From the NCBI GenBank assembly GCA_033439255.1, contig CM065882.1, forward strand, positions 3,038,001 to 3,102,000: a stretch of DNA of 64,000 bases, given 5' to 3'. This DNA comes from Hericium rajendrae. Taxonomy: Eukaryota > Basidiomycota > Agaricomycetes > Russulales > Hericiaceae. The first letter of the stretch is position 1; each line of letters begins with the position of its first letter. Made by a program: the position numbers and the translations under genes. The notes beneath the pieces are model-generated. The model made no database searches, had not been told where the DNA came from, and saw only the letters and a program-made list of their open reading frames with translations. Below are positions 33,386-64,000 of this stretch, in pieces.

Positions 33386-33741
33386 TCTGCGTTCGAGGAC
33401 ACTAGCAAGCACTTGCGTGTCCGACGTGGGGTCCGATGCAGAGATTTCCGTAAATTACTGCAATGCGCAACATGAGTGGCCCTCAATCTTGCTCATGGAT
33501 CGGGTACCGTAATGTAGCCTCTGCCCCACGCAGGATGGGTCATGAGTAGCGACATCCTCAATGATCTTTTTGCATGCTTGGCGGACATGATCGCATTGCC
33601 GTCTTGGACGTCAGTTCTGCAGAAGGACAGCCATTTTCCAGAGAAGTCAATATAAAGACTCGACAGTATAAAGACTTGAGGTGGATGTGATGAGCCCGCA
33701 CCTTCTATTTTTCCTTCCAGATTTTCTATATCGTAAAGCAC
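33386..33741. other. Intergenic region
   Basis: About 356 bases between the inverted repeat and the RTA1-like relic. No gene is seen. The last 40 bases should be the old promoter or 5' UTR of the relic. Confidence 0.4.
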
Positions 33742-34849: not shown

Positions 34850-35398
34850 GGTTATGGGCCCTGCCTGAACACCTGCTACACAAGAAGTTACCTTTGCTGT
34901 TTTACCAAGGCAAGTCACCTTTCCCAACATCAGGGAAATTGGAATTCTACATAGCCCAGTGTTAAGTTATGTGTCCTATCAGAGTGCTATGAGGTCTATG
35001 TAACTATCCTTCTCAACTATGTAGGGCTATGAGGTCTATCATAGCTTTCATAGCAGTAGGTAGGTGCTATGTAGTGCTATATACTCCTGAGGGGCAGCTA
35101 TGATTGCTATATAAACTTGCTGGCTTGCTATGGTCCCTATGGCTCCTATGGCCCCTACATTAAGTGAGCTAGACTTCATAAACATCCAGTCAAAAGTCTC
35201 ATATTGCACACTTGAAAGCATGAAAAAAATTATATATTCAATAACTCCTACTAAGGGACATTGTAGCTATAACACACAAGTAAATGCTACATGTGCACGA
35301 GGTGCACGACTGCGGCGGCTGTACACATGCGCGAAATGCGAGGGCCGTGCACCCGCGCACATCACAAGGGCCATGTCGAGAAGACGGGGCCACGGCGG

Positions 35399-35458
35399 GT
35401 CGGCGGGGGTACGCGCGGATCGGCGGGGGTACACGCGCGGATCGGCGGGGGTACGCGC
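35399..35458 (+). repeat. Minisatellite in the GC-rich core of copy A
   Basis: Three near-identical units of about 21-23 bases built on ATCGGCGGGGGTACGCGCGG. The cores of copies B and C carry different minisatellites at the same relative place. Confidence 0.8.
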
Positions 35459-35742
35459 AAGGCACGTGAGCCATGCACGAACGCCGTGCATGACACAGCA
35501 GCATCACTCGCAAAAAGGGAGGCCATGCGCGACGCAACAAAGCCCCGCAGATGGGGTTGTGCGCGGCCGTACACACCCAGTCGCTGCCGTGCGTGACTGT
35601 GAATGGCTGCCCGCGCGCAGGCGGGGCCGTCTGTGGCTGCCTGCATGCGTATGCGCGGGCTGGCGGGGCCATCTGCAGCTGCCTGCGCAGCGTGTCCGTG
35701 CCCTCGTGGTCGTCCGCGGCTGTATGGCGCCGTCACCGGCGT

Positions 35743-36563
35743 TGATATGCCTCAAGCTGTGTTCAGCAACGTCAGACCTCATCTCACCATCTCCCATGCA
35801 GTTCCCCTTCACTTCCATCCAGCTTCCAGCTCCTCACCCACCAACCTCGCTCAGAGCAGTGATGTCCCTCATCTCAGGAGTTGTCAGCTACTGCAGGCCT
35901 CACCGAGGTTTCCTCAAGTTCGCTCCAGGTCGTCCTCAGCGGTTTTGGTGAGCCAATCAGGTTGCTGGCATTATGGTACCGGGTCTGTGTTGTACAGGAT
36001 GCCTGGATGCTGCCTTTTGATGGTTTCGGACCATAGATGTACCATAGAGCAGCCGAGTCCGAGATCGCCCGAGACCGCCAAGGGCGAGTTTCTTACTTGT
36101 ATGGTAGACAGAGTCCCAGCTTCGAATAGAACCCCCCAGTGCACCTTTCCCCCTCAGAGCTCAGACCACAGAAGTCTCTCTCACTGTTGTTCTCATCGTT
36201 CTCCAGACTTTAGACAAGTCCGCCCTCTTTAGGCCAGTCCGCCCGCAGTGTCGTTCGTCAGATTCAGTCATATCAGCCGCTTTTCAGTCCTTTTCTCTAG
36301 GATTAGTCCGTCGTACCGGAGACCCGTGTGTCTCGTCGTTCTCCTTGTCATTCTACAGCCGTTCCTCATCCTTTCCAGCCGCTTATCACCAGATCGCCTC
36401 AGACTCGCCCTTAGCGAACCGGTCACTCCATTGTACCTGCTGCAGTGACCCTCAGCTGCCCTCACCTCACTCCTCACTTGAGATACTTGGTCCCCTCGCA
36501 CCCCCCGGTACTCTGTTGGTTTTGGTTTTGGCTGCCGCCTCCATTCCCAGGGTCCACACATCA
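35743..36563 (+). repeat. E1 left LTR
   Basis: 821 bases, TGAT...ATCA ends. Nearly identical to the split right LTR; one visible change is CGCCCGA here versus CGCTCGA at 40434-40440. Confidence 0.9.
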
Positions 36564-36566
36564 TTT

Positions 36567-36586
36567 TGGAGCCCACCGCGAGGGTT
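36567..36586 (+). promoter_or_regulatory. E1 primer-binding site
   Basis: TGGAGCCCACCGCGAGGGTT lies three bases after the LTR. Its reverse complement ends in CCA with a U before it, as expected for a tRNA 3' end with U73 (tRNA-Cys is a candidate; inference). The same 20 bases follow the E2 LTR. Confidence 0.8.
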
Positions 36587-38109
36587 CCATACTCAAAACA
36601 GTGAGGGGTGTACCCAGGCGTAGCCTCTATCAGGTCAAGACTGCCATCGAGGTCAGGACATTGCATTTTTGCTCTCTATCGCCTTAGGCAGCCTTGGTGC
36701 ATTCTTCGAGATCGCCATTGGTTGCAGAGCTTTCCAATCGGTTCTCGTCACCATTCATCGCACCTGATTGCCTCCTGTCGCTTTCCACCATCCTGCCCCC
36801 CCCCCAGAGTCGCTTTTTGTCACCCAGGACCATCCTCCATCTCTCCTCAGTGCCCTGTACTGGCTCAGATCGTTCTGAGTCATCTCCTATCACCTCTTGT
36901 CACCTCCGGCCTTCCTTCGTCGTCTTTAAGTCACTCCAATCGTCTTTAATCGTCCCTTGATCACCTCAGATCGTCTCAGCTCGCCTCAAGGTTGCCTTAG
37001 GCGGACTCGGTCCCCAGCATCTCTTACTGCCTAGCATCACTTCTCACTTCGTTTGGTCGCCCCAGATCGCATTTTGACGGCATTAGTTGGTCTTCAATCG
37101 CTCTTGTTTGCCTTTTTAGCACCCAGGATCATTGCCTAGCACTGTTGCCACAGAGTCGCCGATAGCGTACTAGGTCGCAGCCAGCTTTCAGCATCTTAGG
37201 TCATCCAGGATTGCCCTTATATCCCCTTCGGCGACCTCTTCACACCATTGAGTCATCCCAGCTCCCTTCTGTTGCTCAGACTCGCCTTGGAGGTGCCTCT
37301 GTACCCCATAGCTTGCATCAGCTCCTCCTCCTATCACCTTCCAGTGCTTTGAGTCACTTTTCTTTGCCCCAGGGTGCCTATCGATCACTCCTATCACTGT
37401 CTTTCGTTCAGGAGCCATCTCCCATCGACTTATCGCATTTTGTCTTAGGCAAGGTCACCCCAGCATCCCTAGCACTCTCCATTGGTTGCAAAGGAGTCTT
37501 GTTTCTTTCAGGTTAAGCCAGTTGTGTCCAGACTGCTTACAGTCCATCCCAAAGTCACCATTGACGTTCAGGAGCCTCTCGAGTCACTCTCAGGTCATTT
37601 TCTTGGCCCCTTCTTGCTTTCTTTTGTTTCAGATTTCCGCTGGCGATCTTGGCTCGCCGTCGGCGACATTGGTTGCTTTTAGCAGTTTCTCATCGCTTTT
37701 CCAGGTCGTATCGCCCCAGGAGCACCCCTGGCCCCTTTGGATCATCTCTCCCTATCGCTCGTCATTCTGGTTGCCCCAGAATTGCCTTCTATTGCTTTTG
37801 AGCATTTGTCATCGCTTTCAAGCACCTTTCATCGCTTTCAAGCATTCCAGATCATCAGTTATCATCGCAGGTCATCGTCCACCACCTTGGCTCTTCACTC
37901 GTCCCTTCCAATTGTCTCGCATTGCCCTAGTCATAGCAAGATCGCCTCACAGTCGCTCCTCATCGCCCCTGATCACCCCTAGTCCATCTCAGGCTCACTT
38001 TCCTCGCATCAGAGTCACCTCCATCGTTCCTGATTGCTCTAGCGTGCCTCCGATCACTACTGCTCACTTTCATCCTCGACATTACCCCTGCCCCACTGCT
38101 TCTGTTACA
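36587..38109 (+). other. E1 leader, pyrimidine-rich word repeat
   Basis: About 1.5 kb of T/C-rich sequence in which short words such as CATCGC, AGATCG, CCTCAG and TTTCAAGCA recur irregularly, for example CATCGCTTTCAAGCA twice near 37810-37845. An open frame runs through part of it (from 37486) only because stops are rare in this composition. No protein domain is seen. Confidence 0.6.
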
Positions 38110-39972
38110 ATGACGCCATCAGCATTCATGCCAATGCGTGGAGAGAGCGGTGCTCCCAGCTTTGCCAGAGACGATCCCTGTGAACTCAGACCATATTTTG
38201 CAGATCTGGAGTTTTGTTTTCAGCGCTTTCAGGTCCAGGACGATTTGGAGAAGAAGGCTCATGCAGTCCGGCTTTTGTCTGAGTTAGATGCCCAGGATCT
38301 CTGGCAGTCTGAACCGAGTTTTGGCACAGGCACTTGGAATGAGTTCAAGGCTGCGATCCAGAAGTTGTATCCAGGTTCCGAAGCAGGAGGCCTTTGGTCC
38401 AGGCAGGATTTGGTGGCTCTCGCTCGAAGGACGCTTCAGGCGAACTTGTCCTCCTTAGGCGAACTTGGTGCATTTCTTCGCCGATTTTTGGTCATTTCAC
38501 GTTGCCTGAAGCACCAGGGACGTCTCTCTGCTTTCGAGGAGCAGCATTTCTTCCTCTCAGCACTTCCAGATTGACTCTGCCACCAGATTGAGGCCTATCT
38601 CACCCAAAGGCACCCAGACCACCATCCAGACGAGTCCTACCCCATTATCGACATCTATCACACTGCTAAACGCATTCTGCATGGTACGAGCATCACATTT
38701 GGCCCTCATACAGGCTGTAATGATCCAGTTGCCGACGTTTTGGCAAGTTCGCCACCAGCGGTCTTGGGTTCTGCAACCACAATCACCATCAAGAGCGAGC
38801 ATGTACCCTCATTAGCGAATCTCCTGCTTAGGACAGTCCAGCCACTGACATTTTCACCTCCTGTCCAGCCAGCGACCTCCTGTACGCCTTCGACGACCTT
38901 CAGACAGCCTCGGCGTATTCGGACTGCCCCTGGGCATTGCAGCTTCTGTGGGGCCCATGGTCACTTCCTTCGTCAGTGCGCAGCAGTTCAGACGTACCTG
39001 AAGGCTGGCAAGTGCAAGTTCAACACCAGAGGCGAGATCACTTTACCTTCTGGGGCCTGGCTACCTCGAGGTGTCCCAGGTGATCCCATTGCAGTTCGTC
39101 TCGACCAGTTCTATCGGCGCACCCCATCCTGGCATGCCCCAGACCAGTCTTCACCCGGCACCATCACTCAAACTGCTTCCTTTGTCCACCGAATGCCTGC
39201 TCCACACAAGTCTGCCCACAGCGACCTTCCTTCGACCACAGATCAAGTGTCCTTTGATGATCGAGTCTCTCTCCTAAGCCGTGGCCTCCCCATTTCGACG
39301 ACAATCCAGTCTTGCAGACATCAGCTTGCTCAGCTCTATCAGATGCAACTCGACTTCACCGCCTACCACGCTCGAGGCGAACTTGCTCAGCTCCGTGAGC
39401 CAGCAGTGATGCCAGCCCATATGTCGAGGCCATCCTTCGTCGATCATCATGTGTCATCATCTAGGAGGCCTCTCCTGTCGTCCAGAGACCAATGCAAGCA
39501 GTTAGAGACTCAAGTTCGCTCTGCGCTCAACATCGCCCAAAGCGAACCACCAGCGAACTTGTTTCTATTGGACTTAGAGAAGCACCAAGTCTCGAGCAGC
39601 TCATCTACCCTTCCTTCCACCATCTCTACCGATGCAGGGTCCCTTTCTCAATGCGCAGATCTGCTGGTGGATCACCAGGGTGTTTTAGAACCTGATCTTA
39701 ACCCAGGAGTCCTTGTTGGTAGCTCTGAACCCACTCCAAGCTCGCCTACAATGTCCAAGCCTATACCTGCTGACTGTCGACCTCCGTTTTCCATCACTCC
39801 ACCGCTTTCAGTGTCATTTCTCCAGTCGCTTTCCAGATCCAAGTCAAGTTCGCTCAGGGCGCCCTTAGTTGATGACAGTGATATCATTTTCCTTGACCAT
39901 CTCGCTTTCCATCAGAACCCACCAGCAGTGATCCCAGATCGTCCTCCTCTACCACGATGCATTCTCGCTTGA
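38110..39972 (+). CDS. E1 Gag-like protein with internal TGA
   Basis: From ATG at 38110 (MTPSAFMPMRGESG) the frame gives a retrotransposon capsid-like domain (PYFADLEFCFQRFQV, KKAHAVRLLSELDAQDLWQ, FRLFLVISRCL-like LRRFLVISRCLKHQG). A TGA stop sits at 38572-38574 after FLSALPD. The same frame stays open for a further 465 codons and holds a CCHC knuckle CSFCGAHGHFLRQC (near 38940) and then a Ser/Pro-rich tail ending PRCILA. Because the frame does not shift, the TGA is either a recent nonsense mutation or a readthrough codon (context TGA CTC). No protease or polymerase follows. Confidence 0.7.
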
Positions 39973-40099
39973 TCATTGTCACCACCTCCACTCTCCTTCT
40001 CAGCTATAGTGAGAACACTGCTCGAAGCGTATTTGATGTCTAGAGTCCGAATCCCTCGTGGGGCTCATTGGTTAGACTGAGGGCAGTCTATTTTTCAGT

Positions 40100-40110
40100 T
40101 GGGGGGAGAA
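40100..40110 (+). promoter_or_regulatory. E1 polypurine tract
   Basis: The purine run GGGGGGGAGAA-like GGGGGGAGAA abuts the right LTR start at 40111 and would prime plus-strand DNA synthesis. Confidence 0.75.
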
Positions 40111-40440
40111 TGATATGCCTCAAGCTGTGTTCAGCAACGTCAGACCTCATCTCACCATCTCCCATGCAGTTCCCCTTCACTTCCATCCAGCTTCCAGCTC
40201 CTCACCCACCAACCTCGCTCAGAGCAGTGATGTCCCTCATCTCAGGAGTTGTCAGCTACTGCAGGCCTCACCGAGGTTTCCTCAAGTTCGCTCCAGGTCG
40301 TCCTCAGCGGTTTTGGTGAGCCAATCAGGTTGCTGGCATTATGGTACCGGGTCTGTGTTGTACAGGATGCCTGGATGCTGCCTTTTGATGGTTTCGGACC
40401 ATAGATGTACCATAGAGCAGCCGAGTCCGAGATCGCTCGA
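40111..40440 (+). repeat. E1 right LTR, first part
   Basis: Matches 35743-36072 and is interrupted at 40440 by the E2 insertion; it continues at 54655. Confidence 0.9.
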
Positions 40441-40646
40441 TGTCACGCTCAAATCCGGTTCTGAGCGTAAACATGAACTTAGAGCGCCAAGTATGAACGT
40501 AATCTCTCAGAACTCGGTCAGATTATTCTAATAAGAATCTATCCTATTTACGGTGAAACCCGTCCTTCTGCTAAACTCCTCCCCCCCACCAAAAACACCC
40601 TGTCTCTTATCTCAAAGGCCTTACATCCCCCTTCAACGCTATTCTC

Positions 40647-41909
40647 ATGCCTCGCTTTTCTCTTCCTCAATGGCTCGCAAACCTTCTTGGACGACCGACC
40701 TTACCTTCCCTTCGAGATATATCCTTTAACATCGAACACCATACTCTTCGTTATGCTACCGAGGATCGCCTTGACTTCTTTCTAGGTGATCGTGTTATGG
40801 TAGATCCCATTTACAGGCTGAGCGACAGAGATATACCCATGCCCATCGAGCCCATGCTTTGCAGCATGTCCGCAGCCCTCGAAGTATACGACCGAATGGA
40901 GCAGGTCATACGTGACAGGAGAGAGAGAGAGGGAGAGAAGATGCCAGACACACCCAAGCCGGTAGATTTCGACACTCGGTCCTTCATCACTGAATCTGTT
41001 CAGGTTCCTGAGGTCCCCTCTCCTGCTAGTAGCTGCGCCGCAGACGTCGCAGCTATCATAAAGACCATCCGTCCTCCCATACTCGCACCAGAAGGGTCCA
41101 GTGGTTCCTACGCTCCTGGCATCATCACTGTCTCAACCGCCAATGACATCATCCCTCCCTTTTATCTTTGACAATTCCATAACTCTACCGGTAAAGTCTG
41201 GGCGGTGTCTGATCCATCTATCCCTATCAACTTCTTCACCGCATGCCTGATTCAGGGAAATTACCATCTACCCTGGTTCTGCGTCATCAAGCCCCTCAGG
41301 ACGGTGTGCATGGGCCAGATCGTACTCGTCACCTCTGACCGAGAAGGTGTTTGTGTCGTTGGAAGGGTTACCGAACTACTGGAGACATCGTTCTCATGGT
41401 TTACCTGGAAGCTGACCCGTATCAGTACCATCGACGACACCAACCCAGACTGGGGAATGCCTTCGGCTGTTCCTAATCCCACTTCGACTTATGGGTCAGG
41501 GACCATCACTATGCTCGTTCCTCGGATTTGGTCAGATGCTGGAAAGGGCAAGAGAGCTCGAGGGATGGCAAGAAAAGGAGTTCACATCAGAGATCGGCTC
41601 ATGCCATTCGACCCATACGACCTGGTGCACGCTGTCTACGAGGAGGGTACGTTCGCTCGACATTTTATCCCCTATCACCCATCAATCTTCGACACTATTC
41701 GACAAGGACGTGAGCGAAAGCGGACCGAGATTCTAGGCGGAAGGACACGGTTCTACGTTGATGCCATGGAGTGGGCACGAACAGAGGTACCCAGGACCGA
41801 ATACCATCCAATGATAGGCGATCCATTCTCCTTCGAGGTCGAGTATCACGCTCCTCAATCTCCCTCCCAGTGTGAGCTCTGCACGTCTCAGCCCTCTCAG
41901 GCTAAGTAA
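40647..41909 (+). CDS. LTR-encoded unrecognised protein (left LTR copy), one in-frame TGA
   Basis: ATG at 40647 opens MPRFSLPQWLANLLGRPTL and runs 174 codons to TGA at 41169-41171 (context CTT TGA CAA). In the same frame the sequence continues for 246 more codons (KVWAVSDPSIPINFFTACL ... QCELCTSQPSQAK) to a stop at 41907-41909. The second part has protein-like composition (NYHLPWFCVIKPLR, VCVVGRVTELLETSFSWFTWKLTRI) but I recognise no family. The identical copy at 52598-53860 keeps the same TGA. The frame lies upstream of the LTR TATA box, in what would be U3. It may be an accessory gene expressed from its own promoter; an intron spanning the TGA is the alternative to readthrough. Confidence 0.55.
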
Positions 41910-42249
41910 GAATGTCCCTCAAGGACGTTGGAGGTCGGAAGCATGAAGAAGTTCATGGAATATCGCTGAGTAAACATATTCCTCGGTATTCTGTACCTTT
42001 CTCTGAACTTACGATCACAAGGGGTCAACATAGTTCTGGACTATTCTGCATGCTTCTTTCAGATTCCTCATCCTTCTTTTGCTGCTTACTCATTCCACAT
42101 TTTTCCAAGGCGCAGCCTTACTTTTGAAATTCCGTCCGTACAGCCTCGTCGTTTGAATCACCATCCTGGGGTTAATGTTCTCGTAGTTATGCTGAAATGT
42201 CTCTTTCTTGATCCATACCTTACTTACACACAGCCTCGGTATCTCTTTG

Positions 42250-42258
42250 TATAAATAG
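42250..42258 (+). promoter_or_regulatory. E2 LTR TATA box (left)
   Basis: TATAAATAG in the 3' third of the LTR, the likely promoter for the genomic transcript, which would start around 42280. Confidence 0.6.
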
Positions 42259-42389
42259 CTGGCCATTTGGAGCCTCAGAATATTCATATTCCCCTTTGTC
42301 CAAAGAAGTCTGACCATCAGAAACTCACTGTCTGAAATCCCAAAGTCCGTCTGTCGGCCACACTGAACGCCTGCCCATCACGTCCATCA

Positions 42390-42436
42390 CGCTGTCCACG
42401 CTGTCCACGCTGTCCACACTGTCCACACTGTCCACG
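42390..42436 (+). repeat. Five CTGTCCAC(G/A) tandem units in the E2 LTR
   Basis: Nine-base units CTGTCCACG, CTGTCCACG, CTGTCCACA, CTGTCCACA, CTGTCCACG in tandem. The same five are present in the right LTR at about 54341-54387. Confidence 0.85.
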
Positions 42437-42709
42437 CCGTCTACTGTCCCGAAGTCTGTCTGTCAGCCACTCTGTTTGCCGAATCCACATCTGCCCATCA
42501 CGACTTTGAGCCTGCATCAGAGCCTAGTTGCAGTCACTCTCTTCTTTCGCCATCTCACCATACACATTGACGTGTTGCCTAAATTCCTGGTCACATCGGA
42601 TCGTCATCAGTCAGAGAGAAACCCCAAACGAACAACTAGGCGTTCCTGGAAAAATACCCAGAAAACCCGGACACACCTAGGTCGGAAACACATTTCCGCG
42701 AGACATCAC

Positions 42710-42729
42710 TGGAGCCCACCGCGAGGGTT
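42710..42729 (+). promoter_or_regulatory. E2 primer-binding site
   Basis: TGGAGCCCACCGCGAGGGTT, four bases after the LTR end and identical to the E1 site at 36567-36586. Confidence 0.85.
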
Positions 42730-43094
42730 ATTTCTCTTTCTGATTTACCTACATCCAAGTCTCCAGAAATACGGCTTCCCCATTAGCATCTCAAGCTTCA
42801 TTTGAATCTTATCGATCGGCATCATCGGCCAATTCCTCGGATACTGAACTACCATCCGGACAATTAACTCCGATCAGCCTCCTCGACGACATCTCAGACC
42901 CATCAGATCTTGCCAGTCCTGAATTATCGGATCCTAATCCTACTGCTGGTACCCTTGCTCCGGATAGCTCTCTCAGTTCTCTCCCTTCCTCGGGATCCTC
43001 TCCGAGCTCGGTACCACCCACCAGCTCCCCCGAATCTAACCATCTCAGCCCAAATCCTTATCCCCCAACCCTACCTCCCTCCCCAGTACCAAAT

Positions 43095-46000
43095 ATGAAT
43101 CAGAATGCTGTACCCGGTGTGATCCGTTCTGTTTTAACTATGCCACTAGCTGGAACAAAGAATGCTCCAGTGAAGTTCAGAGGAGAATTCAACTATGTTG
43201 AGAAATTCCTCACTCAGTACGAGCAACTATGTCGTGAAAACAACGTTGTCAATAATGAAGAACGGTGTTCAACAATCACGCGTTACTGTTCTCGGAATGT
43301 GACAGAATTCATCGAGGGTCTAGAAAGTTACCGAAATTGGGACTGGAATCAGTTCCGAAATGACCTCCTCAAATACTATGATGCCGATTTATACTCTCAA
43401 AGGTTCAAGAGAAAGGATCTAGAAAATTATACCAACAAAACGAAGTACAGAAAGATTGGAAACCTTGCCTCATGGAAAAAGTATAACCGGGGATTCGTCA
43501 AGATAGCCGGATGGCTTCTTCAGAAAGGAAAGATCAGCCAACGAGAGCACGATACATTCTTCTGGTATGGAATCGGGCGAGATCTCCGATCTATAATCGA
43601 GGGTATGTTCCTAACCTCCCACCCCAATCAAGATCGAGGAGTACCATACGATATGGGGACAGTCGGAGCCATTGCAGAAACAATCCTGACCCGAAACCGT
43701 TTCGACGATATTATGGAAGGAAGCAGTGGTGATGATGACACGGACTGGTCTGGAGACGATGAATCCGAGGAAGACGACTCTACCGACGAAGATGCACGTC
43801 TCCATGACCGCAGGAATAGAAAGAAAAAGGATAAACGTGGCCGGAAGAAGGCGGTGCCGAGGAAGAAGCATGTTCGATATGCCGATGATGAAGAAATAGA
43901 AACCAAAGCATATCCCTCAGGAACTCCACCCCCGAGACGTCAGGCAGCCATGTCTCAGGAATCCATCGAAGATCTGGTCCAGCAGTTAAGCCGGCTTGAT
44001 ATTGCCGACCCTCAATATGCCATGGTATACTATCGAGCCCTGTGCTTGGACAAACGGATCAAAGAAGTCATGCCAGCACCTGTAGTAAGGGGGCAAGCTA
44101 CAGCACAGGCCAGTACAGGACAAGGAAGGCCACGGCCTCCTACACCTCCTCCACGAAGCTCATGGAACAGAGACCCACCTCCGCACATCGGAAATACGGC
44201 GACCTCTTCGGCTGGAAATGTGACATTCCCGCCAAACACCCGCGAAGAGTTCATTTGTTATGGATGTGGTGAAAAGGGCCATGGTATGAACATGTGCAGG
44301 AAAATCGAGGACCAAGTTAAACAAGGATTATTGGGACGCGACGCGCAAGGAAGGTACACTCACGGAAATGGTGCAGTCATTCGGCGCTATCGGGGAGAGT
44401 CGATCATTGAAGGCGCAGCACGCGAGCGATCAGAACAAAAGGGGCCAACATCATCGGCAAATATACAACACGCTAATTTGGTCCACATCCATCAGTACGA
44501 GGAATCTGAAAAATATGAAAGTCAGAACGACGAAAGCGACGACTCCGAGGACGAGTTGGAAGTGTACCTTATGGCTGGAGACACCGATGACAGCGAGGAA
44601 GAATACCTCGTCTATCCAGCTGAGCGTACACCAAAGAAAATGACGACCGCACGACGCCAGATTTTCGATGGAGTCTATCCACCAAAGCGATCGGCACCGG
44701 GAATCAGGAAGGTCGGAAAAGAAAACGTACCTCTGGGGATAAATATTCCGCGAGCAGTTCAAGCACAACGAATCCCGGGGGAAAAAGTGGGACATCCTCG
44801 CACTAATCCCGACCGTGAATCGAAAGAGACCCCTTCGAAGCGGCCGCTCGAGACCATAAGACCTGAAACGACCGGAATGAGAACGCGATCGGCAAGTCAG
44901 CAAGGGGATACACCAATGGAGCAAAGAGATACCAATCAAACACCGGGTAATGACGAGAACATTACCGAACGTGCGCGCCGTGCGATACGTCGGAACCCGC
45001 CATTGAATTCGCCACGAGCGCCGAGCCCAACGCCCAATGAGCCTATCCGGGAACAGCTCCCAGTAGACACACGCGAGGCTGTGTTTGATCCACTCGATGA
45101 TGATGCAATCATGGAGGATGCATCCATAGACAAGAAAGTTGTCAGATCCAGCAAAAAGAAGGAAGACATTTACGAAAAGGAGGCGCACCGAAGATCTGTA
45201 CCTCGAAAGTCTGCCATCACAGTGGATCCTGCGACAGTTCTAGGTCAGATGCTGCGAACGCCGGTTCAATTAACTATCGGGGACGTCTTGGGATCTTCTA
45301 AAGAGCTGCAAAATATCCTGTCAGACAACATGCGAAAAAGAAATCAGTCGGCAACGGCCAGCGTGGAAAAGAAAGCGGTCGTACATTCAGCATTCCGTCC
45401 ACCTCGTGGCCCACTGATCAAAATCCCGTTTGAAATTCGAGGGCGGACTGTCACTGGGATTATCGATACCGGATCTCAACTAAATATCGTTAGCAGGGAC
45501 ACGTGGAGAAAGAAGATTCGCTTACCGGTCGACTTGCTACAAACGGTCGAAATGCACGACGCTAACGGCGGTGCTGAGAAACTTACCGGTTTGGTGAGAG
45601 ACGTTCCGCTAAACTTTGGAGGGACTCTGACCCAAGCTGACCTATATCTCGGAGAACATGTACCGTTTGACCTTCTTCTCGGGCGCCCCTGGCAGCGTGG
45701 AAACTTCGTTACTATCGACGAACGAGCCGACGGGACATATCTTGTGTTCAAGGACCCAGAAAACGCAGACCGTGCGTTATGGGAGGTACTAGTAGAGGAT
45801 GGAACCTCCGAGAAGGGTTATCTTCAACCAAGAGATCACGCGGGCGTAGAAATTGTTCAAACGTACCTGATAGAAGGCGTCGATCAAGGAAAGAACACGT
45901 CCGAAGGCCACGAGGGAAGGGCCACCGAGCACAGCTTCAGAAACCAAGAGGCCTTGATAGGAGCCGGAACTGCAGAAGAGGAGCACTTTCAAATGATAAG

Positions 46001-48449: not shown

Positions 48450-48450
48450 G
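48441..48450 (+). promoter_or_regulatory. Candidate +1 translational frameshift site of E2
   Basis: The Gag-protease frame ends TCG GCC TGA G. Reading one base later gives CCT GAG, which is in the polymerase frame (RPEVRLTIYPRN). A slip of the GCC-decoding tRNA to CCU while the UGA is slow would give Gag-Pol fusion. The polymerase frame is open from 48118, so the shift could occur elsewhere in 48118-48449; this end is the simplest site. Confidence 0.5.
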
Positions 48451-52350: not shown

Positions 52351-52597
52351 GCCGACAACCGGGGACGGTTGTCATTCAAGTTCCCCGCGGATGTCACGCT
52401 CAAATCCGGTTCTGAGCGTAAACATGAACTTAGAGCGCCAAGTATGAACGTAATCTCTCAGAACTCGGTCAGATTATTCTAATAAGAATCTATCCTATTT
52501 ACGGTGAAACCCGTCCTTCTGCTAAACTCCTCCCCCCCACCAAAAACACCCTGTCTCTTATCTCAAAGGCCTTACATCCCCCTTCAACGCTATTCTC

Positions 52598-53860
52598 ATG
52601 CCTCGCTTTTCTCTTCCTCAATGGCTCGCAAACCTTCTTGGACGACCGACCTTACCTTCCCTTCGAGATATATCCTTTAACATCGAACACCATACTCTTC
52701 GTTATGCTACCGAGGATCGCCTTGACTTCTTTCTAGGTGATCGTGTTATGGTAGATCCCATTTACAGGCTGAGCGACAGAGATATACCCATGCCCATCGA
52801 GCCCATGCTTTGCAGCATGTCCGCAGCCCTCGAAGTATACGACCGAATGGAGCAGGTCATACGTGACAGGAGAGAGAGAGAGGGAGAGAAGATGCCAGAC
52901 ACACCCAAGCCGGTAGATTTCGACACTCGGTCCTTCATCACTGAATCTGTTCAGGTTCCTGAGGTCCCCTCTCCTGCTAGTAGCTGCGCCGCAGACGTCG
53001 CAGCTATCATAAAGACCATCCGTCCTCCCATACTCGCACCAGAAGGGTCCAGTGGTTCCTACGCTCCTGGCATCATCACTGTCTCAACCGCCAATGACAT
53101 CATCCCTCCCTTTTATCTTTGACAATTCCATAACTCTACCGGTAAAGTCTGGGCGGTGTCTGATCCATCTATCCCTATCAACTTCTTCACCGCATGCCTG
53201 ATTCAGGGAAATTACCATCTACCCTGGTTCTGCGTCATCAAGCCCCTCAGGACGGTGTGCATGGGCCAGATCGTACTCGTCACCTCTGACCGAGAAGGTG
53301 TTTGTGTCGTTGGAAGGGTTACCGAACTACTGGAGACATCGTTCTCATGGTTTACCTGGAAGCTGACCCGTATCAGTACCATCGACGACACCAACCCAGA
53401 CTGGGGAATGCCTTCGGCTGTTCCTAATCCCACTTCGACTTATGGGTCAGGGACCATCACTATGCTCGTTCCTCGGATTTGGTCAGATGCTGGAAAGGGC
53501 AAGAGAGCTCGAGGGATGGCAAGAAAAGGAGTTCACATCAGAGATCGGCTCATGCCATTCGACCCATACGACCTGGTGCACGCTGTCTACGAGGAGGGTA
53601 CGTTCGCTCGACATTTTATCCCCTATCACCCATCAATCTTCGACACTATTCGACAAGGACGTGAGCGAAAGCGGACCGAGATTCTAGGCGGAAGGACACG
53701 GTTCTACGTTGATGCCATGGAGTGGGCACGAACAGAGGTACCCAGGACCGAATACCATCCAATGATAGGCGATCCATTCTCCTTCGAGGTCGAGTATCAC
53801 GCTCCTCAATCTCCCTCCCAGTGTGAGCTCTGCACGTCTCAGCCCTCTCAGGCTGAGTAA
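52598..53860 (+). CDS. LTR-encoded unrecognised protein (right LTR copy), one in-frame TGA
   Basis: Same frame as 40647-41909, including the TGA at 53120-53122. The only protein change seen is the last residue, Glu instead of Lys. In this 3' LTR position the frame would lie in the 3' part of the genomic RNA. Confidence 0.55.
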
Positions 53861-54198
53861 GAATGTCCCTCAAGGACGTTGGAGGTCGGAAGCATGAAGA
53901 AGTTCATGGAATATCGCTGAGTAAACATATTCCTCGGTATTCTGTACCTTTCTCTGAACTTACGATCACAAGGGGTCAACATAGTTCTGGACTATTCTGC
54001 ATGCTTCTTTCAGATTCCTCATCCTTCTTTTGCTGCTTACTCATTCCACATTTTTCCAAGGCGCAGCCTTACTTTTGAAATTCCGTCCGTACAGCCGTCG
54101 TTTGAATCACCATCCTGGGGTTAATGTTCTCGTAGTTATGCTGAAATGTCTCTTTCTTGATCCATACCTTACTTACACACAGCCTCGGTATCTCTTTG

Positions 54199-54207
54199 TA
54201 TAAATAG
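54199..54207 (+). promoter_or_regulatory. E2 LTR TATA box (right)
   Basis: TATAAATAG, equivalent to the left-LTR box. Transcription from here would read out into the E1 LTR remnant and the core of CATC copy A. Confidence 0.55.
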
Positions 54208-54654
54208 CTGGCCATTTGGAGCCTCAGAATATTCATATTCCCCTTTGTCCAAAGAAGTCTGACCATCAGAAACTCACTGTCTGAAATCCCAAAGTCCGTC
54301 TGTCGGCCACACTGAACGCCTGCCCATCACGTCCATCACGCTGTCCACGCTGTCCACGCTGTCCACACTGTCCACACTGTCCACGCCGTCTACTGTCCCG
54401 AAGTCTGTCTGTCAGCCACTCTGTTTGCCGAATCCACATCTGCCCATCACGACTTTGAGCCTGCATCAGAGCCTAGTTGCAGTCACTCTCTTCTTTCGCC
54501 ATCTCACCATACACATTGACGTGTTGCCTAAATTCCTGGTCACATCGGATCGTCATCAGTCAGAGAGAAACCCCAAACGAACAACTAGGCGTTCCTGGAA
54601 AAATACCCAGAAAACCCGGACACACCTAGGTCGGAAACACATTTCCGCGTGACA

Positions 54655-55149
54655 CCGAGACCGCCAAGGGCGAGTTTCTTACTTGTATGGTAGACAGAGT
54701 CCCAGCTTCGAATAGAACCCCCCAGTGCACCTTTCCCCCTCAGAGCTCAGACCACAGAAGTCTCTCTCACTGTTGTTCTCATCGTTCTCCAGACTTTAGA
54801 CAAGTCCGCCCTCTTTAGGCCAGTCCGCCCGCAGTGTCGTTCGTCAGATTCAGTCATATCAGCCGCTTTTCAGTCCTTTTCTCTAGGATTAGTCCGTCGT
54901 ACCGGAGACCCGTGTGTCTCGTCGTTCTCCTTGTCATTCTACAGCCGTTCCTCATCCTTTCCAGCCGCTTATCACCAGATCGCCTCAGACTCGCCCTTAG
55001 CGAACCGGTCACTCCATTGTACCTGCTGCAGTGACCCTCAGCTGCCCTCACCTCACTCCTCACTTGAGATACTTGGTCCCCTCGCACCCCCCGGTACTCT
55101 GTTGGTTTTGGTTTTGGCTGCCGCCTCCATTCCCAGGGTCCACACATCA
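54655..55149 (+). repeat. E1 right LTR, second part
   Basis: Resumes the E1 LTR at CCGAGACCGCC and ends CACACATCA, matching 36563. The GC-rich core of CATC copy A resumes at once with GCGT. Confidence 0.9.
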
Positions 55150-55623
55150 GCGTGCATAGACCAGCACGCGCTGGCAGTCATCTGTGGCCATGCATGTGCC
55201 GTCACCGGTATGCGTGGCCTTGCGCACGCAGACGGGGATGTGCATGACCATCCGCATCGTGCGCCGTGCGGTCACCTGCGACCGCGGCCATGCAGTCGCC
55301 GCCGGGCATGGCCCCGCATGCACAGGAGAGGCCGTGCTTGGCCGCCCGCACACTGGCAGGATCGTGCGCGGCTGCCCACACCGTGCGTGCGTGCGTGCGC
55401 TGATGCGGTCGTCCTCGGCCGTGCGCATGCAGTCGCCAGCGTGCATGGCCCCGCTCGTGCAAGGGCCGTGTGCATGCAACCGGGCGCATGTAGGCGGGGA
55501 CGCACGTCGGACTGCGCATGGAGACATGGGCGTGGGCGTAGGCATAGCATGGGCGTGCAGCGGCGTGGGGCACGGGCGTGGTGGTGTGGTGGAGGGCGAG
55601 AAGGGGTCGTACGACGTTTGGCC

Positions 55624-55653
55624 GAGTCTCGTTGCTACGGCAACGAGACTCGA
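55624..55653 (+). other. Extra perfect hairpin in copy A
   Basis: Inverted repeat CGAGTCTCGTTGC / GCAACGAGACTCG with a TACG loop, 13-bp arms, about 90 bases before the conserved hairpin. Its sequence resembles a variant of the latter. Not seen in copies B or C. Confidence 0.8.
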
Positions 55654-55745
55654 CGACGGCGTTGTCGAGGAGAGTGGGATGAGGCAGGCTCGTGGGTGTA
55701 GGCGAGGGTTGTCAAAGGCGAGCGGGGGTCTGCGAGACGACACAC

Positions 55746-55776
55746 GAGTATCGCTCGTTGGCAACGAGCGATACTC
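55746..55776 (+). other. Conserved hairpin of CATC copy A
   Basis: Arms GAGTATCGCTCGTT and AACGAGCGATACTC around a GGC loop. It is followed by ATTTGATTAGCAC, sharing the TTAGCAC box with copies B and C. Confidence 0.9.
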
Positions 55777-56224
55777 ATTTGATTAGCACAAAAAGACAAA
55801 AAAAGACACGTATTTACTTACCTAGATCCCCTCAACTCCTGCGAGCCCTTCTGACCGTTGACTGACGTCTTATCTTGCGTGTGGAGAGAGAGAAGAGGGA
55901 CAAAGGGAGACAAAGGGAGAGGTGGAGATTGGGTGGAGTGAGTACTGGACGAAGACAAGTCGCGCGTCGAGTGCAGCCACAGCACTCGACTCGCGCGGCT
56001 GGCAATTTCGAGTTTAACAAATCAAATCAAACTTTTTAAAATACGAGAAAAACGAAGCACGTATAAATTCGTCAGTTGTACACGATGAATGAGCTAGGTA
56101 GGTATCTACTGTACGGTAACTCCTTCAGCAACCAACCTAATTTACTGAAATCTAAATCAGTAGCCTCTGCCGCGGCATCCAGCAACCGCCGGCCAGTCAT
56201 AATTCGGGCTCCGACGCACTCACG

Positions 56225-56233
56225 TATATAAGG
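56225..56233 (+). promoter_or_regulatory. Putative promoter of CATC copy A
   Basis: TATATAAGG in the context CGTATATAAGGC..GCGCGACGCGCGTC. Copy B keeps the same CGTATATAAGGC and GCGCGACGCGC. About 170-190 bases downstream both copies keep CGCTTTTT followed by TTTGGTAAGT, a strong donor-like sequence (56405-56425 here). This points to a spliced transcript running to the right end; no coding frame follows. Confidence 0.55.
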
Positions 56234-57513
56234 CATGCGCGACGCGCGTCCTCTCTCTCTTCCCTACCACTACCATCTTCCGTCTTCCGTCATTTGCTTC
56301 TCTCCCTCTCTTCAACTTTCTTTGTTCGGTCAGTTCTTATGTTGTTATATTGTTAACTAATACTTATGCTCATGTATTATCTTCATAGACTTTGAATATT
56401 TTCGCTTTTTCTTCTCTTTGGTAAGTCTTATCTATTATGTTCTTTCTTTTTATTGTTTACTTACAATAAGTTGTTGTTGACTTTAGGTTTTATTTTCGCT
56501 TTTTATTGTCTTTTGAGGGAAGTCTCATTATATTATGTCTTTTGTCTGATATAGCTTGACTTATACTTGTAAATATGTATAGGCTTGTTAATTCTGTAGT
56601 ATAATGTAGTACTCTTTTGTATATTAGTATATCTAATGAATTATACTGTCTTTGAAAATTTCGATGTTTTGTTGATCTGAGAATTGTGTAAAAATTTGTT
56701 TGTAGTCTGATTGTAGATTTGATAGTATAAATAGCTTTCATTGCTTTTATAGATGTGTCAAGTCTATCTTATGGACATAGCTTATATTAATGGTATAGCT
56801 TCCATAGCTTCCATAGCTATATGTTCTATGATAGCTGCATAGTCAGCTATGATAGCTATGATAGCACTTCATAGCATTCCCTTTGAGCTCTATAGCACTA
56901 TATAGCATCTCTCCTTGGCTATATAGGCTATGGAGTAAAGGGCAATGCTATGGCCCTAGGAACTCTATATAACTCTGATAGGGCTATGTAGCATCTCTAC
57001 ATTTCCCTGATGAACTCGTGCCCCACTTGGAGTTCTTCAATGAACTGCCATCGTGCTCTTGCCCTTCGGGGTTACACGAGCGTTGACGACGGAAGCATGG
57101 CAATGCTAGAAGTCAGCGTGAGTCCACCTGTCTGTGCTCTCTCTGTGCGCTTACTATACGTACGATACATGAGGCTCTGTCAAGGCTCGTGTCCTTGCTT
57201 CACCCTCTACTGTAGTAGGCAAGCGTCGGGAAGCCGGCGTGATGCTATAAGGGATGTGAACGGTTGGCTATTGCCCTTAAGTGGGAATAGTTTTGGTGTC
57301 CCAATCCTGAGGGAGGTAGTCAATCCACCCAGGAGCACCTGTACAACTGCGCATCTCATACCTTACAAGTACTATAAGCGCACATGGACACAGATGGGAC
57401 AGGATCTTATGATCCTGGCTAGAGATACAGCACATGGGGTTGGCGTCGCCTTGAACTTCTTAAAGAACCTGGGTCTGACCGCTCCTCAACCCAGATATTC
57501 GCCTACACACACT

Positions 57514-59340: not shown

Positions 59341-59872
59341 CATCTGAAAAATTTGCCAGTGGTACATAGCTCTATAAAGTCTACATAGATCTCCTAGCTT
59401 CATAGTATCGCCCTTTATTGTATAGCCCACATAGCCAAAGGGTGATGCTATGTAGTGCTATGAGGCTCAAAGGTGATGCTATGGAGTGCTATAGAGTGCT
59501 ATCATAGCTATGAGAGCTGACTATGTAGCTATGATAGTATGACTAGCTATCAAAGCTATCAGTATCTATCAAAGCTATAAGGCTTATGTGTCTTACATAT
59601 CCTATATTCAATATGTGTCTCACATAACCTATGTATAATATATGTGAGACATATCCTACATTCAATATGTGTCTCATATATCTTATATTAAATATGTAGA
59701 CCTGATATACATATTAAAGCAATAAAATTTATTAGAACTTTAAATCTTTTCTACAATCATATCAAAATTAATAACATATGATCACACAGATTTATAATAT
59801 TTCAAAGCATCAAGATTATATTGATATCACAAACACTACTACTAACTAAAAAGTGACAATATAAGTAAGAAA

Positions 59873-60010
59873 ATAAAAAGATAAGATAAGATAATACAAG
59901 AAGATAAGATAAGATAATACAGTATGATAAGAAGATATGATAAGATAAGATAAGTAAAAGGACATAAGATAAGAGAATATAAGAAACTAAGTAAGAAAAG
60001 ATAAGAAAAC
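59873..60010 (+). repeat. GATAAG-rich simple repeat in copy B
   Basis: About 15 spaced copies of (A)GATAAG within 140 bases. These are also consensus GATA-factor sites on this strand, but simple-sequence expansion is the more economical reading. Confidence 0.8.
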
Positions 60011-60297
60011 ATGAGTCTTAGAAGATAAAGATAACATATAAGAACTTACCAAAGTAACAAAAAGCGAAATGTAAGAAACTAACTTGAAGACATTAGTATT
60101 AGTATAAGCAATAAGAGACCAACAATTAAAACATTACCTTAAAGACAGCAACAACAAGCAAGAAACAACGAGCAAGTAGAAAACAACGACGAGCAAGCAA
60201 AAAACAATGACAAGCAAGCAAACGACGTCGACGAAGGCATCGACGTGGCAAGAGATAGTGAGAGTTAAAGAGCAAGAGGCAGTGCGCGTCGCGCGAG

Positions 60298-60306
60298 CCT
60301 TATATA
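60298..60306 (-). promoter_or_regulatory. Putative promoter of CATC copy B
   Basis: Reverse complement reads CGTATATAAGGCTCGCGCGACGCGC, matching copy A in sequence and position. A conserved donor-like TTTGGTAAGT lies downstream on this strand near 60045-60055. Confidence 0.55.
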
Positions 60307-60737
60307 CGAATCCCGGGCGGAGCCGGGATTCGTGGCTGTCGGGTGCTTGCCGAGCATCGCGTCAGAGACTGGGGCCAGACTCCACTAAATGGCCTTGGCT
60401 CTCTGTGAGCTTGATGTATAGTAGATACTTACAATGCTCATTCATTCGAATTGTATTTACAATTTATGGCTCTACTGTTTTTTTCTAAATTTGTGTGATT
60501 TTTCTTGATTTGTGGTGATTCGAGAAACGTAGCTTCGCTCATTCGGTGGCTGAAGCACTGAGACGCGCGTCGAAGTTCGTCTCTCGCTGTCTCCACCACA
60601 TCCACTCTCCACTCTCCTCCCTCCACCCTCCTACTCTCCCTCTAACTCGTCAAACCGCATGCAGGAGGGACTCAGGCGGATGCAGAGGGTCTCAAAGGTG
60701 AGTAAAGAATACTTTTATTTCGTTTATTCGTGCTAAC

Positions 60738-60773
60738 GTCGAGAGTATCGCTCGTTCGAGCGATACTCTCGAC
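60738..60773 (-). other. Conserved hairpin of CATC copy B
   Basis: Perfect palindrome with 17-bp arms (GTCGAGAGTATCGCTCG) and a TT loop, next to GTTAGCAC read on the minus strand. Confidence 0.9.
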
Positions 60774-61189
60774 TTCTTTCGTCCTCCCGCGCCCTCACTC
60801 CCCCTCGCCTCCGACTGCCGCCCCTCCCGCATCACCTTGCCCTCCACCGACCTCGCCGCCTTGCCGTCATGTCGCTAGCGCCCGGCGCGCCACCTCCAAT
60901 GGTCACGATCAGCGGAGTGCGCCCGATCGTCCACGACCCGGGACGGGCATGCCAGCACATGCACGTCGTGCATGGCCCTCTCCATCCGCACGACCATCTA
61001 CGCCATCGCGCCCAGGCCCGCTGCCCCCGACGCTTCGCGCACGCCTCCCCGCGTGCTTCGCATCTCCCGCATGCAGGTTGCAGTGTCGCGCACGGGCCCG
61101 CCGCCGCCGACGCCTCGTGCGGGTCCCTCGTGCCTCGTGCGCGTCACCCTCACCTCGCGCCCATCACCCTCGCCTCGTGCCCCTCGCCC

Positions 61190-61530
61190 TCGCCTCGTGC
61201 GCGTCGCCCTTGCCTCGCGTGTGTCGCCCTCGCCCTCGCCCTCGCGCACGTTGCCGTCACCCTCGCGCATGTTGCCGTCACCCTCGTGCACGTCGTCCGT
61301 GCCTCGCGCACGTCGTCTGCACCTCGCGCACATCCTCCGCACCACGCGCATGTCCTCCGCACCATGCGCACATCCTCCGCGCCATGCAAACGTCCTCCGC
61401 ACCATGCGAACGTCCTCCGCGTTTCGCGCACCTTCCACACGCCTCGCGAACCGTCCCCGCACCTCACGAACCATCCCCGCGCCTCGCGAACCGTCCCCGC
61501 GCCATGCGTACGAACCCCGCATTCCGCATC
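61190..61530 (-). repeat. Minisatellites in the GC-rich core of copy B
   Basis: Several short tandem families on the plus strand: CCTCGCGCACGTTGCCGTCA twice, then units like CCTCCGCACCATGCGCACAT about six times, then CGCGAACCGTCCCCGCGCCT about four times, all imperfect. Confidence 0.8.
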
Positions 61531-62072
61531 TCCCGCACGCAGGCTTGCTGCATAATGCAGGCCCGCCCTATCGTGCACGGGCCTCACAGCATGCGACTCT
61601 CGCGCACGGGTCCCGGGCTTCGCGTGCACCATTGCACCTCGCGTGCAGTGTCGTGCATATCAGTCGTGCCCTTACGCGTGCACGCCTTGTCACACCTCGC
61701 AGGCATACATGTAACTTAGTGTATTTGATTGTCGTAGTAGTTAAATATAATTTAATTTGACCTGTTTTGAGTATAGTATCAATATCATAGACTCTACATT
61801 AACTGTAGATATTATAGCAGACTAAAGCTCTGTATGGAACATAGTATCTATAGGATACATAGAGGGAGACTAGAAATACATAAGTTACATAGCAGGCATA
61901 GTAATGTCCTATTACTATGTAATACTATGTACCCATCACCCATGACTATGATAGCTATGATAGCTACCATAGTCCTGTATAGCTGTGTGGCCCAACTACA
62001 TAGCAGCCATAGCACTATGATACCAGACATAGCATTGGCTGGCAGCTATGTAGATTTCAGATTTTTCAGATG

Positions 62073-62433
62073 TGCAGGCTTGTCTCTCGGTTTCTGGCAG
62101 CTAGCGGTTGATACAGCAGTTCACGTATACAACCGCACTCCCACTCGCGTACTAAAATGGAAGACGCCGATGGAGATTTGGGATGCTGGTCACATTCCTG
62201 ACGTCTCGTACTTCCGCGTTTTTGGCTGTAAAGCCTACGTACACATTCAGAAGGAGCATCGTCACAAGTTGGAGCCTAACTCCAAGGAAATGACGTTTGT
62301 GGGTTATGAGGATGGTTCTAAAGGTTACCGTTTCTGGAACTCTACAACCCGGTCCATTGTCTTGTCTGGCGAAGCAAGATTCGATGAGACTTCCTTCCCT
62401 TCGCGACCAACCCAGAAAGTGCCCCCCAGCACT
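62073..62433 (+). pseudogene. Copia integrase, continued
   Basis: Resumes GLSLGFWQLAVDTAVHVYNRTP directly after copy B and reads MEIWDAGHIPDVSYFRVFGCKAYVHI and MTFVGYEDGSKGYRFWN. This is the C-terminal integrase and linker typical of copia Pol. It is then cut by copy C after VPPST. Confidence 0.85.
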
Positions 62434-63179
62434 CATCTGAGAAATTAAAATTTTATATAGTCTAGTGTTCATTTATATGTCCTATCATAATGCTATGAGG
62501 TCTATCATCATCTATGTAGCTATCTTTCTCAACTATATAAGGCTATGAGGCCTATCATGGCTTATATAGCAGTAGTTAGACACTATATAGTGCTATATAT
62601 TTCTAAGAGGCAGCTATAGCTGCTATATAAATGCACTGACTTGCTATGGTCCCTATGGTCCCTATGATCCCTACAGTAAGTGAGATATGAATACTATCAT
62701 TACTATCTCAGAAGTCAATTAAGTACAAAGAAAATCAATTATATTTAATGTGGCTAATATTACAATCAAGTACACTACTAATATGAACAACGCATGCCCC
62801 ATGGACAAGGCACGCATGCGCACGAGGCGCGGCGGGCGTGCGCGGCGCGATAGTCATGCATATGGCAGCAGTCGTGCGTGGGGCGCAGTGGGCCCCGTGC
62901 GCGAGGTGCTAGGCTCATGCGCGAGGCGCGGCGGCCATGCGCGAGGCGCGGGAGGCGCAGTGGCCATGCGGATGGCGAATCCATACGCCAGGTGCGGCGC
63001 GGCGGGTGTGCGCGAGGCATCGGGCCCGTGCGCGAGGTGCGGCGGGCGCGGCGAGCCGGCGCGGGATGCGACGAGCGGGTGCGAAGCGTGGTGGATGCGC
63101 GGCGAGGTACGCGAGGTACGACGGGCGTCGCTGGGCGTGAGGCGTCGCTGGGCATCGGGCTGCCGCGGGCTCGTGCGCG

Positions 63180-63420
63180 ACGTGTGGCGAGTGTGGTGGA
63201 GACATGGCGGGCGTGGTGGTGGCGTGGCGGGCATGGTGGCGGCGTGAGGGGCGTGGTGGTGGCGTGACGGACGTGGTGGTGGCGTGGTGGGCGTGGTGAC
63301 AGCGTGGCGGGCGTGGAGAGGCGTGGCGGACATGGGCGAAGGGCGGCGAGCGTGGCGGAGACTGGCGGAGACGTGACGAGACGTGGCGGACGTGGGGAGG
63401 CGTGGCGGACGTGGGCGAGG
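63180..63420 (+). repeat. Minisatellite in the GC-rich core of copy C
   Basis: Imperfect tandem words GGCGTGGTGGTGGCGTG(A/G) and GTGGCGGACGTGG repeated about ten times. The unit differs from those in copies A and B. Confidence 0.8.
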
Positions 63421-63830
63421 GGCAGCGAGCGTGCGCGCGGGGCAGCGAGCGTGCGCGCGGGTCTGCGAGCATGCGCGGGATGCTGCGCTGCCACAGGCCC
63501 GTACGCGAGTACGGCGGGCATCCGCAGGGCGTTGGCTCGTGCGTGAGGTACGGGGCCCGCCTGCGAGCACGCCTCACACGGCCATGCACGACGTGCGCTG
63601 GCGTGCGCAGCACGGCGGGGTTGCGCGCAGCGCCTGGGCCCGTGCGCGAGACGAGGAGGCAGCGAACGGCGTGCCTGGCCCACGCACGAGGCGACAGGCC
63701 GCCGGTGCGTCGTGCGGTGGTGTGTGTGACGGCGGAGTCCGGGGTGGTCGACGTGGTATGGCGGCGGAGTCGGGGGTGGGTCGACGGGGGACAGGCGGCG
63801 GCGGAAGGCGAGTGGACGGGAGGAGAGCGA

Positions 63831-63856
63831 GAGTATCGCTCGAATGAGCGATACTC
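63831..63856 (+). other. Conserved hairpin of CATC copy C
   Basis: Arms GAGTATCGCTC and GAGCGATACTC around a GAAT loop, followed by CCTAAGTTAGCAC. Confidence 0.9.
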
Positions 63857-64000
63857 CCTAAGTTAGCACGAAGAAACAATAGAAAAGTTCTTTTTACTCA
63901 CCTGACGGGCCCTCATCATCCTGTTATCCTCCTTCGCTGTTCGCTTTGATGGGAGAGGACGGAGGGAGGGGAGCAGGAGAGGGAGGGGAGTGGTGGTGGG

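Follow-up and report, generated by a model that had tools for sequence, protein, structure and literature searches.

Non-autonomous DNA transposons of PlavakaB type in Hericium rajendrae share an internal intron-like cassette with a conserved hairpin

A window of 64,000 nucleotides from Hericium rajendrae (assembly GCA_033439255.1, contig CM065882.1, called C5 here, C5:3038001-3102000; the genome comprises 46.8 Mb in 19 contigs) contains three elements, A, B and C, which we file as non-autonomous DNA transposons of PlavakaB type. Inside them lies one directional cassette, which is common to diverged subfamilies and consists of a TATA-like box, an exon-like stretch, a 5' splice site, a CTAA and a hairpin starting with AGTATCGC. 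The cassette is the new element here, and the transposon family itself is of a published kind. The cassette shows sequence conservation, fixed spacing, compensatory changes and AG depletion, and there is no coding signal in the core of the B group. The cassette is likely under selection, and its best reading from the sequence is a selected transcription-and-splicing unit that would make a non-coding RNA. Taken together, we consider it probable that a PlavakaB-type non-autonomous set carries a cassette that is transcribed and seen by the spliceosome, giving a non-coding RNA that helps the elements persist.

The internal cassette

Loci L002-L008 were fetched from a search with copy B and L039-L058 from the first listed CATC ends on contigs C1 and C2; this sample is not random. 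A script with the splice donor and CTAA as criteria recognised 28 cassette modules in the fetched loci, 8 of which belong to one B group. The gap between CTAA and the hairpin is 7 nt in all 28. The 5' splice site and branch site of a GT-AG intron are present as GTRAGY and CTAA, these motifs themselves being the recognition criteria of the 28 modules; the donor reads AG/GTRAGY in most of them, and 32-37 nt separate it from CTAA. A TATA-like box lies 387-417 nt upstream of the donor in 17/21 modules, and blocks of the exon-like stretch are conserved in an alignment of 16 families. The spacing was also observed when the gap was left open: CTAA followed after 1 to 30 nt by AGTATCGCTC occurs at 304 sites versus 4 in the control, and a gap of exactly 7 nt is present at 97 of the 100 listed sites (among the three exceptions is a second CTAA of a listed module). 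With 7 nt fixed and a looser hairpin pattern, 435 modules were found versus 6 in the control, and an exact 11-bp palindrome occurs 225 times genome-wide versus 0 times in the control. The initial annotation of this DNA had proposed one layout for the three copies. Ends rich in CTATG/CATAG do recur in CATC elements. The annotation had noticed the hairpin and the promoter-like site, but it had missed the rigid cassette of intron and hairpin.

Covariation was examined in 78 distinct hairpins, taken from the 91 of 100 listed module rows with sequence. In stem pairs 6-10, 14 double changes preserve pairing, versus 3.2 in shuffles (0/2000 reach this number); the same pairs hold 28 G.U cells, 16 A.C cells and 1 other cell. 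A second stem, in the exon-like part, could be placed in 14/16 families, where 85.4% of cells pair. It carries 15 two-sided changes versus 7.2 in shuffles (0/500 reach) and at most 2 when it is slid, and these changes may reflect few events; the pair and type counts do not exceed shuffles (237 and 421 of 500 reach). Furthermore, single-strand folds of the A, B and C cassettes beat shuffles, with z from -2.6 to -4.2. On balance, we think the cassette rather more likely to be an RNA feature than not.

The 3' side of the putative intron is unusual in layout. A constant AG opens the hairpin stem; among the 78 distinct strings, 74 have G and 4 have A just before it, and no YAG 3' splice site was found near the branch site. 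Beyond the hairpin, the scanned stretch is free of YAG over at least 69 nt in 24/28 modules (the exceptions are L050, L051, L072 and A). These 24/28 modules fit a long distance from branch site to 3' splice site, though 8/28 are the one B group. The core that follows is C-rich and poor in AG. Relative to composition, AG is lower than CT between +80 and +700 in 16/19 modules (p 0.002 if independent). This depletion is confined to one strand; GA is also somewhat low in most modules, and the effect may be partly array composition. A protein-coding core was considered for the B group and found unsupported, because only 18/62 insertions and deletions among five close copies are multiples of three, counted over pairs of copies so that shared ones enter more than once. 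The long open frames of the core are in keeping with its composition, and the core alignment lacks common columns in places.

Copies, ends and target duplications

Direct reading confirmed the perfect 12-bp inverted CATC ends that the initial annotation had given for A and B. CATCAGGGAAAT stands at both ends of A, flanked by AA on either side, and CATCTGAAAAAT at both ends of B, flanked by TG. C begins at 62434 with a CATC-type motif, CATCTGAGAAAT, as had also been noted; it lies in the same copia element as B, 361 bp beyond B, and its far end is beyond the window. The length of about 2.67 kb estimated for A agrees with the 2674 bp that remain when its long terminal repeat (LTR) insertion (35743-55149, GCGT flanks) is taken out. 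It had further been claimed that B sits in a copia element with TG duplicated, and empty sites bear this out. Among 40 copia candidates scored of 684, 12 copies match the left flank (97-99%), and all of them run straight into the right flank (96-99%). The TG overlap is directly readable in 11/12; in C6:2699522 the right match begins 2 nt later. Because 12/12 copia copies continue unbroken across the site, we conclude that B duplicated TG on insertion. A search of the genome with copy B (40 places scored of 666 candidates) yielded, besides B, four unbroken full-length copies at 80-94% identity.

The insertion in A is nested. It is an LTR element whose LTRs measure 821 bp (35743-36563 on the left, 40111-40440 and 54655-55149 on the right; 99.7-100% identical). 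A further element, which has direct repeats of 2.27 kb (40439-42705 and 52390-54654; 99.8% identical), interrupts the right LTR.

The elements are abundant. The 12-base end pattern CATCWGRRAAAT occurs 443 + 460 times on the two strands (903), versus 5 + 6 (11) for the reversed 12-base pattern used as control. From the 903 end motifs we infer that the genome holds roughly 450 such elements, a count that rests on the exact motif and so misses imperfect ends. Target duplications were read in 28 bracketed pairs from the fetched loci and the window, with L001 left out, as it equals copy B, and A outside the size filter. The 2-bp duplications proposed initially were seen in 23/28 pairs, and the five without them are L005, L006, L041, L044 and L047; equal 3-bp flanks occur in 0/28. 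At 1/16 per pair, the chance of 23/28 is about 1e-23, with fewer than 28 independent cases since L039, L040 and L046 share flanks. The three copies had been taken for one family. This does not hold, as there are many diverged subfamilies, and all-against-all identity is often only 65-80% in the alignable parts.

On C1, for which the list is complete, 78 CATC ends were counted, 48 of them within the first 734 kb; the others are clustered further on with long empty stretches between them. L050:1747-3585 has a 613-aa open frame with no Pfam match in a CATC element that otherwise resembles L052.

Classification and candidate transposase

According to the part of PMC12730594 that was available, PlavakaB has CATCA..TGATG ends and duplications of 2 or 3 bp, PlavakaA has TGT..ACA ends and a 2-bp duplication, and EnSpm families have CAC..GTG ends and 3-bp duplications. 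The same part groups PlavakaB with CACTA, Mirage and relatives in the CMCT clade, and gives duplications of 8 bp for Zisupton and 7 bp for Kyakuja. The elements here have the CATC ends and 2-bp duplications of PlavakaB. A begins with CATCAG; B and C begin with CATCTG, with T instead of the published A at position 5; one Plavaka group in this genome has this end as well. Thus the suggestion that the kind was undescribed has to be dropped, because such ends are a published hallmark of Plavaka. Judged by sequence, A, B and C are filed as a variant of this published kind. Because no Plavaka transposase lies inside them, they are at most non-autonomous PlavakaB members. The initial annotation had seen no transposase and had envisaged a non-coding set with terminal inverted repeats, probably moved by an unlinked CACTA/Mirage-like enzyme. 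The ends and the duplication length, which fit PlavakaB, support this; the 2-bp duplication fits Mirage too, that trait alone being compared.

The genome contains 132 Plavaka (PF18759), 172 KDZ and 31 Transposase_21 matches, most of the last with long open frames; none of the 132 listed Plavaka matches falls within the window. For three of the genome's Plavaka groups, the right end was located from a pair of copies each, at the position beyond which the two are no longer similar and their flanks differ. These ends are CATCAGCAAAACCCAA, CATCAGCAAAAGCCATAT and CATCTGGAAAAAGTGTTT, all CATC[A/T]G and close to CATCWGRRAAAT. The ends of A, B and C are close to these (CATC[A/T]G..AAA), with right ends only compared and no exact partner among them. 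For further Plavaka groups the ends could not be fixed: L064 and L065 have no common end, and L070-L072 show none (within L072 lies a CATC element that is related to L052). The cassette also occurs in a second non-autonomous lineage, L059:2729-6274. This lineage carries CATCTGGAAAAA at either end and two cassettes back to back, which read outwards into two GC-rich cores. Compared with the third Plavaka end (CATCTGGAAAAAGTGTTT), its left end is equal at 31/36 positions and its right end at 23/36. Longer CATC-ended relatives with a transposase had been looked for as well. None was recognised in 20 CATC-bracketed stretches of C1 and C2, where four long frames from long bracketed copies gave 0 Pfam families and the others were viewed by eye.

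Two other memberships do not fit. KDZ (Kyakuja, Zisupton) was rejected as mover, since it would leave 7 or 8 bp and flank matches end at 2 bp in all 28 pairs; CACTA/EnSpm disagrees with the CATC ends and the absence of 3-bp duplications.

CATC elements also occur inside Plavaka genes (L025:2388, and L069 around 2022). A piece of about 360-430 bp recurs at 98-100% identity in or beside the Plavaka loci L013, L023, L035, L038 and L061. In L061 it ends with CATCAGGAACCTTCAA, and it looks like a short PlavakaB-ended element.

Proposed explanation and alternatives

We propose that a Plavaka transposase encoded elsewhere in the genome would recognise the CATC ends, possibly together with the subterminal CTATG repeats. 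As the ends and target duplications suggest, it would excise the elements and insert them at sites staggered by 2 bp. The cassette would be transcribed and seen by the spliceosome, and its product would be a non-coding RNA that aids persistence of the element.

Several observations weigh against this proposal. As to the cassette, one-sided changes in the hairpin (44 cells) outnumber the 14 double changes, and the excess of G.U over A.C expected of a sense RNA is marginal (28 vs 16, p 0.048). A consensus fold of the exon-like part predicted no pairs. The TATA-like box was not found in 4/21 modules (L043, the minus-strand module of L044 and both L059 modules), L041 has GCAAGT in place of GTRAGT, and a donor is lacking in the second cassette piece of L042. 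Rfam gave 0 matches at E up to 1 in 34800-64000 and 0 at gathering scores in six loci. As to the mover, an autonomous element with the exact A/B/C ends and CTATG repeats was not found, no left end was located for this genome's Plavaka groups, and L059 has no matching 2-bp flanks. In addition, the copies are related, so that counts overstate independent events.

The alternative that survives best, which we still think somewhat unlikely, is that these are plain deletion derivatives whose cassette is the leftover promoter, 5' untranslated region and first intron of a lost transposase gene, without a function of its own. Internal deletion is a common origin of non-autonomous elements, and a TATA-like box, an exon and an intron stand in the order of the 5' end of a gene. 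However, the hairpin module is absent from 30/30 Plavaka loci with 1.5 kb flanks and from L060-L068, and the modules in L069 and L072 belong to CATC elements. Moreover, the 7-nt spacing and the stems persist despite core divergence and subfamily differences of 20-35%.

It is also unlikely that the conserved unit works as DNA, with the palindrome as a binding site or cruciform for transposition or replication and the splice-like motifs as components of an extended DNA site. In favour of this, the stem sequence itself is conserved, as the exact palindromes and their empty control indicate, and the marginal G.U excess agrees with such a role. By contrast, loop length varies (hairpins of 24-31 nt among typed strings), the module has a fixed orientation relative to donor and CTAA, and the AG depletion is one-stranded.

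Quite unlikely, in our view, is another mover, e.g. EnSpm/CACTA-like Transposase_21 proteins or an unrecognised transposase. The 31 Transposase_21 matches with mostly long open frames would supply candidates, and in L007:1501-4402 a B-type CATC element lies beside or inside a Transposase_21 gene. This junction, judged by eye, reads as an insertion into the gene. The ends and 3-bp duplications of published EnSpm (PMC12730594, available part) differ from the elements here, where 0/28 pairs have 3 bp, and KDZ, although present, makes 7-bp or 8-bp duplications according to the same source. Finally, a Pol III-type small RNA unit that ends at a T run, with the downstream splice-like motifs belonging elsewhere, seems very improbable: a run of at least 5 T occurs at -201 to -257 from the donor in 18/21 modules, mostly about 180 nt past the TATA-like box, but the stretch is T-rich, so that T runs are often expected, and Rfam found no match.

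Within our preferred explanation, a selected unit of transcription and splicing, a more specific version can be formulated, to which we assign a low probability. The elements would carry a structured non-coding RNA gene whose 3' end arises from the first splicing step alone. The donor and branch site would be strong, the closest AG would be concealed by the hairpin and the core would have been purged of AG, so that the second step fails. The released RNA might act for the transposon, e.g. in transposase recruitment or escape from silencing. It would be because of this action that the cassette outlives the surrounding sequence, across hundreds of copies and in lineages whose ends differ.

Comparison with known systems

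Plant non-autonomous CACTA elements have CACTA ends, 3-bp duplications, short terminal inverted repeats, subterminal repeats and high copy number. The elements here resemble them in a related transposase group, short terminal inverted repeats, subterminal repeats and copy number, and differ in having CATC ends and 2 bp in place of CACTA and 3 bp. To our knowledge, no comparable internal cassette is present in the plant elements. The published PlavakaB (PMC12730594, available part) differs from A, B and C in its transposase, and the intron-hairpin cassette was not seen in 30 Plavaka loci. In Marasmius oreades, a mushroom rich in KDZ and Plavaka, non-autonomous DNA elements have likewise been classified by terminal motif and duplication length (PMC8290104, as far as the available part goes). 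We compared these by their published description; related families may thus already be on record.

The cassette resembles fission-yeast telomerase RNA, in which splicing halts after step one, owing to a strong branch site and a remote 3' splice site, and the 5' exon is released (PMC4299874, available part). In both, the 5' splice site and the branch site are strong and the 3' splice site is distant or disfavoured. In contrast to telomerase RNA, the unit here has a hairpin 7 nt past CTAA, is repeated hundreds of times in transposons and is known from DNA sequence only. The likeness is one of layout, which we take as a lead and not as a claim of homology. The cassette was not found described in a search of the open-access literature, which did not extend to Repbase, Dfam, most subscription papers or other fungal genomes. 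Eight papers contain one or the other of the stem 11-mers; to judge by titles and the opening of the abstracts, they are unrelated.

The common view of non-autonomous DNA transposons is that of passengers for which the ends suffice. If a large set of them preserves a cassette whose spacing is fixed and whose stems covary in diverged families, their insides would matter too, and a transposon-encoded RNA would be indicated. Plavaka, a little-studied fungal group, gains hundreds of marked non-autonomous copies with which ends, targets and timing can be measured. Furthermore, the question of splicing can be tested with ordinary RNA-seq.

Features of the window

Table 1. Positions of copies A, B and C and their parts in the window
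Feature	Position	Strand	Remark
Copy A	34928..57012	-	Split by LTR insertion 35743-55149; cassette on minus strand
Left terminal inverted repeat of A, CATCAGGGAAAT	34928..34939	+	
Right terminal inverted repeat of A	57001..57012	-	AA outside both ends
5' splice-site motif GTAAGT of A	55816..55821	-	
AGTATCGC hairpin of A	55747..55775	-	
Copy B, 2732 bp	59341..62072	+	Within copia element, TG duplicated
Left terminal inverted repeat of B, CATCTGAAAAAT	59341..59352	+	
Right terminal inverted repeat of B	62061..62072	-	
TATA-like box TTATATA of the B cassette	60300..60306	+	
Hairpin overlapping the TATA-like box of B	60305..60334	+	Predicted fold
Exon-1 stem of B, imperfect in B	60541..60563	+	Compensatory changes between families
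5' splice-site motif GTGAGT of B	60698..60703	+	
Branch-site-like CTAA of B	60733..60736	+	7 nt ahead of hairpin
Hairpin of B, 16-17 bp stem, contains AGTATCGC..GCGATACT	60738..60773	+	
C-rich, AG-poor, minisatellite-like core of B	60774..61700 (approximate borders)	+	Insertions and deletions without coding signal
Copy C, left part	62434..64000	-	Continues past the window; cassette on minus strand
5' splice-site motif GTGAGT of C	63896..63901	-	
AGTATCGC hairpin of C	63832..63855	-	

Two further repeats were observed elsewhere in the window. Positions 5226-6695 and 8672-10143 form a direct repeat of about 1.5 kb with 75% identity, and positions 32563-32898 and 33051-33386 form an inverted repeat of 336 bp with 95.5% identity.

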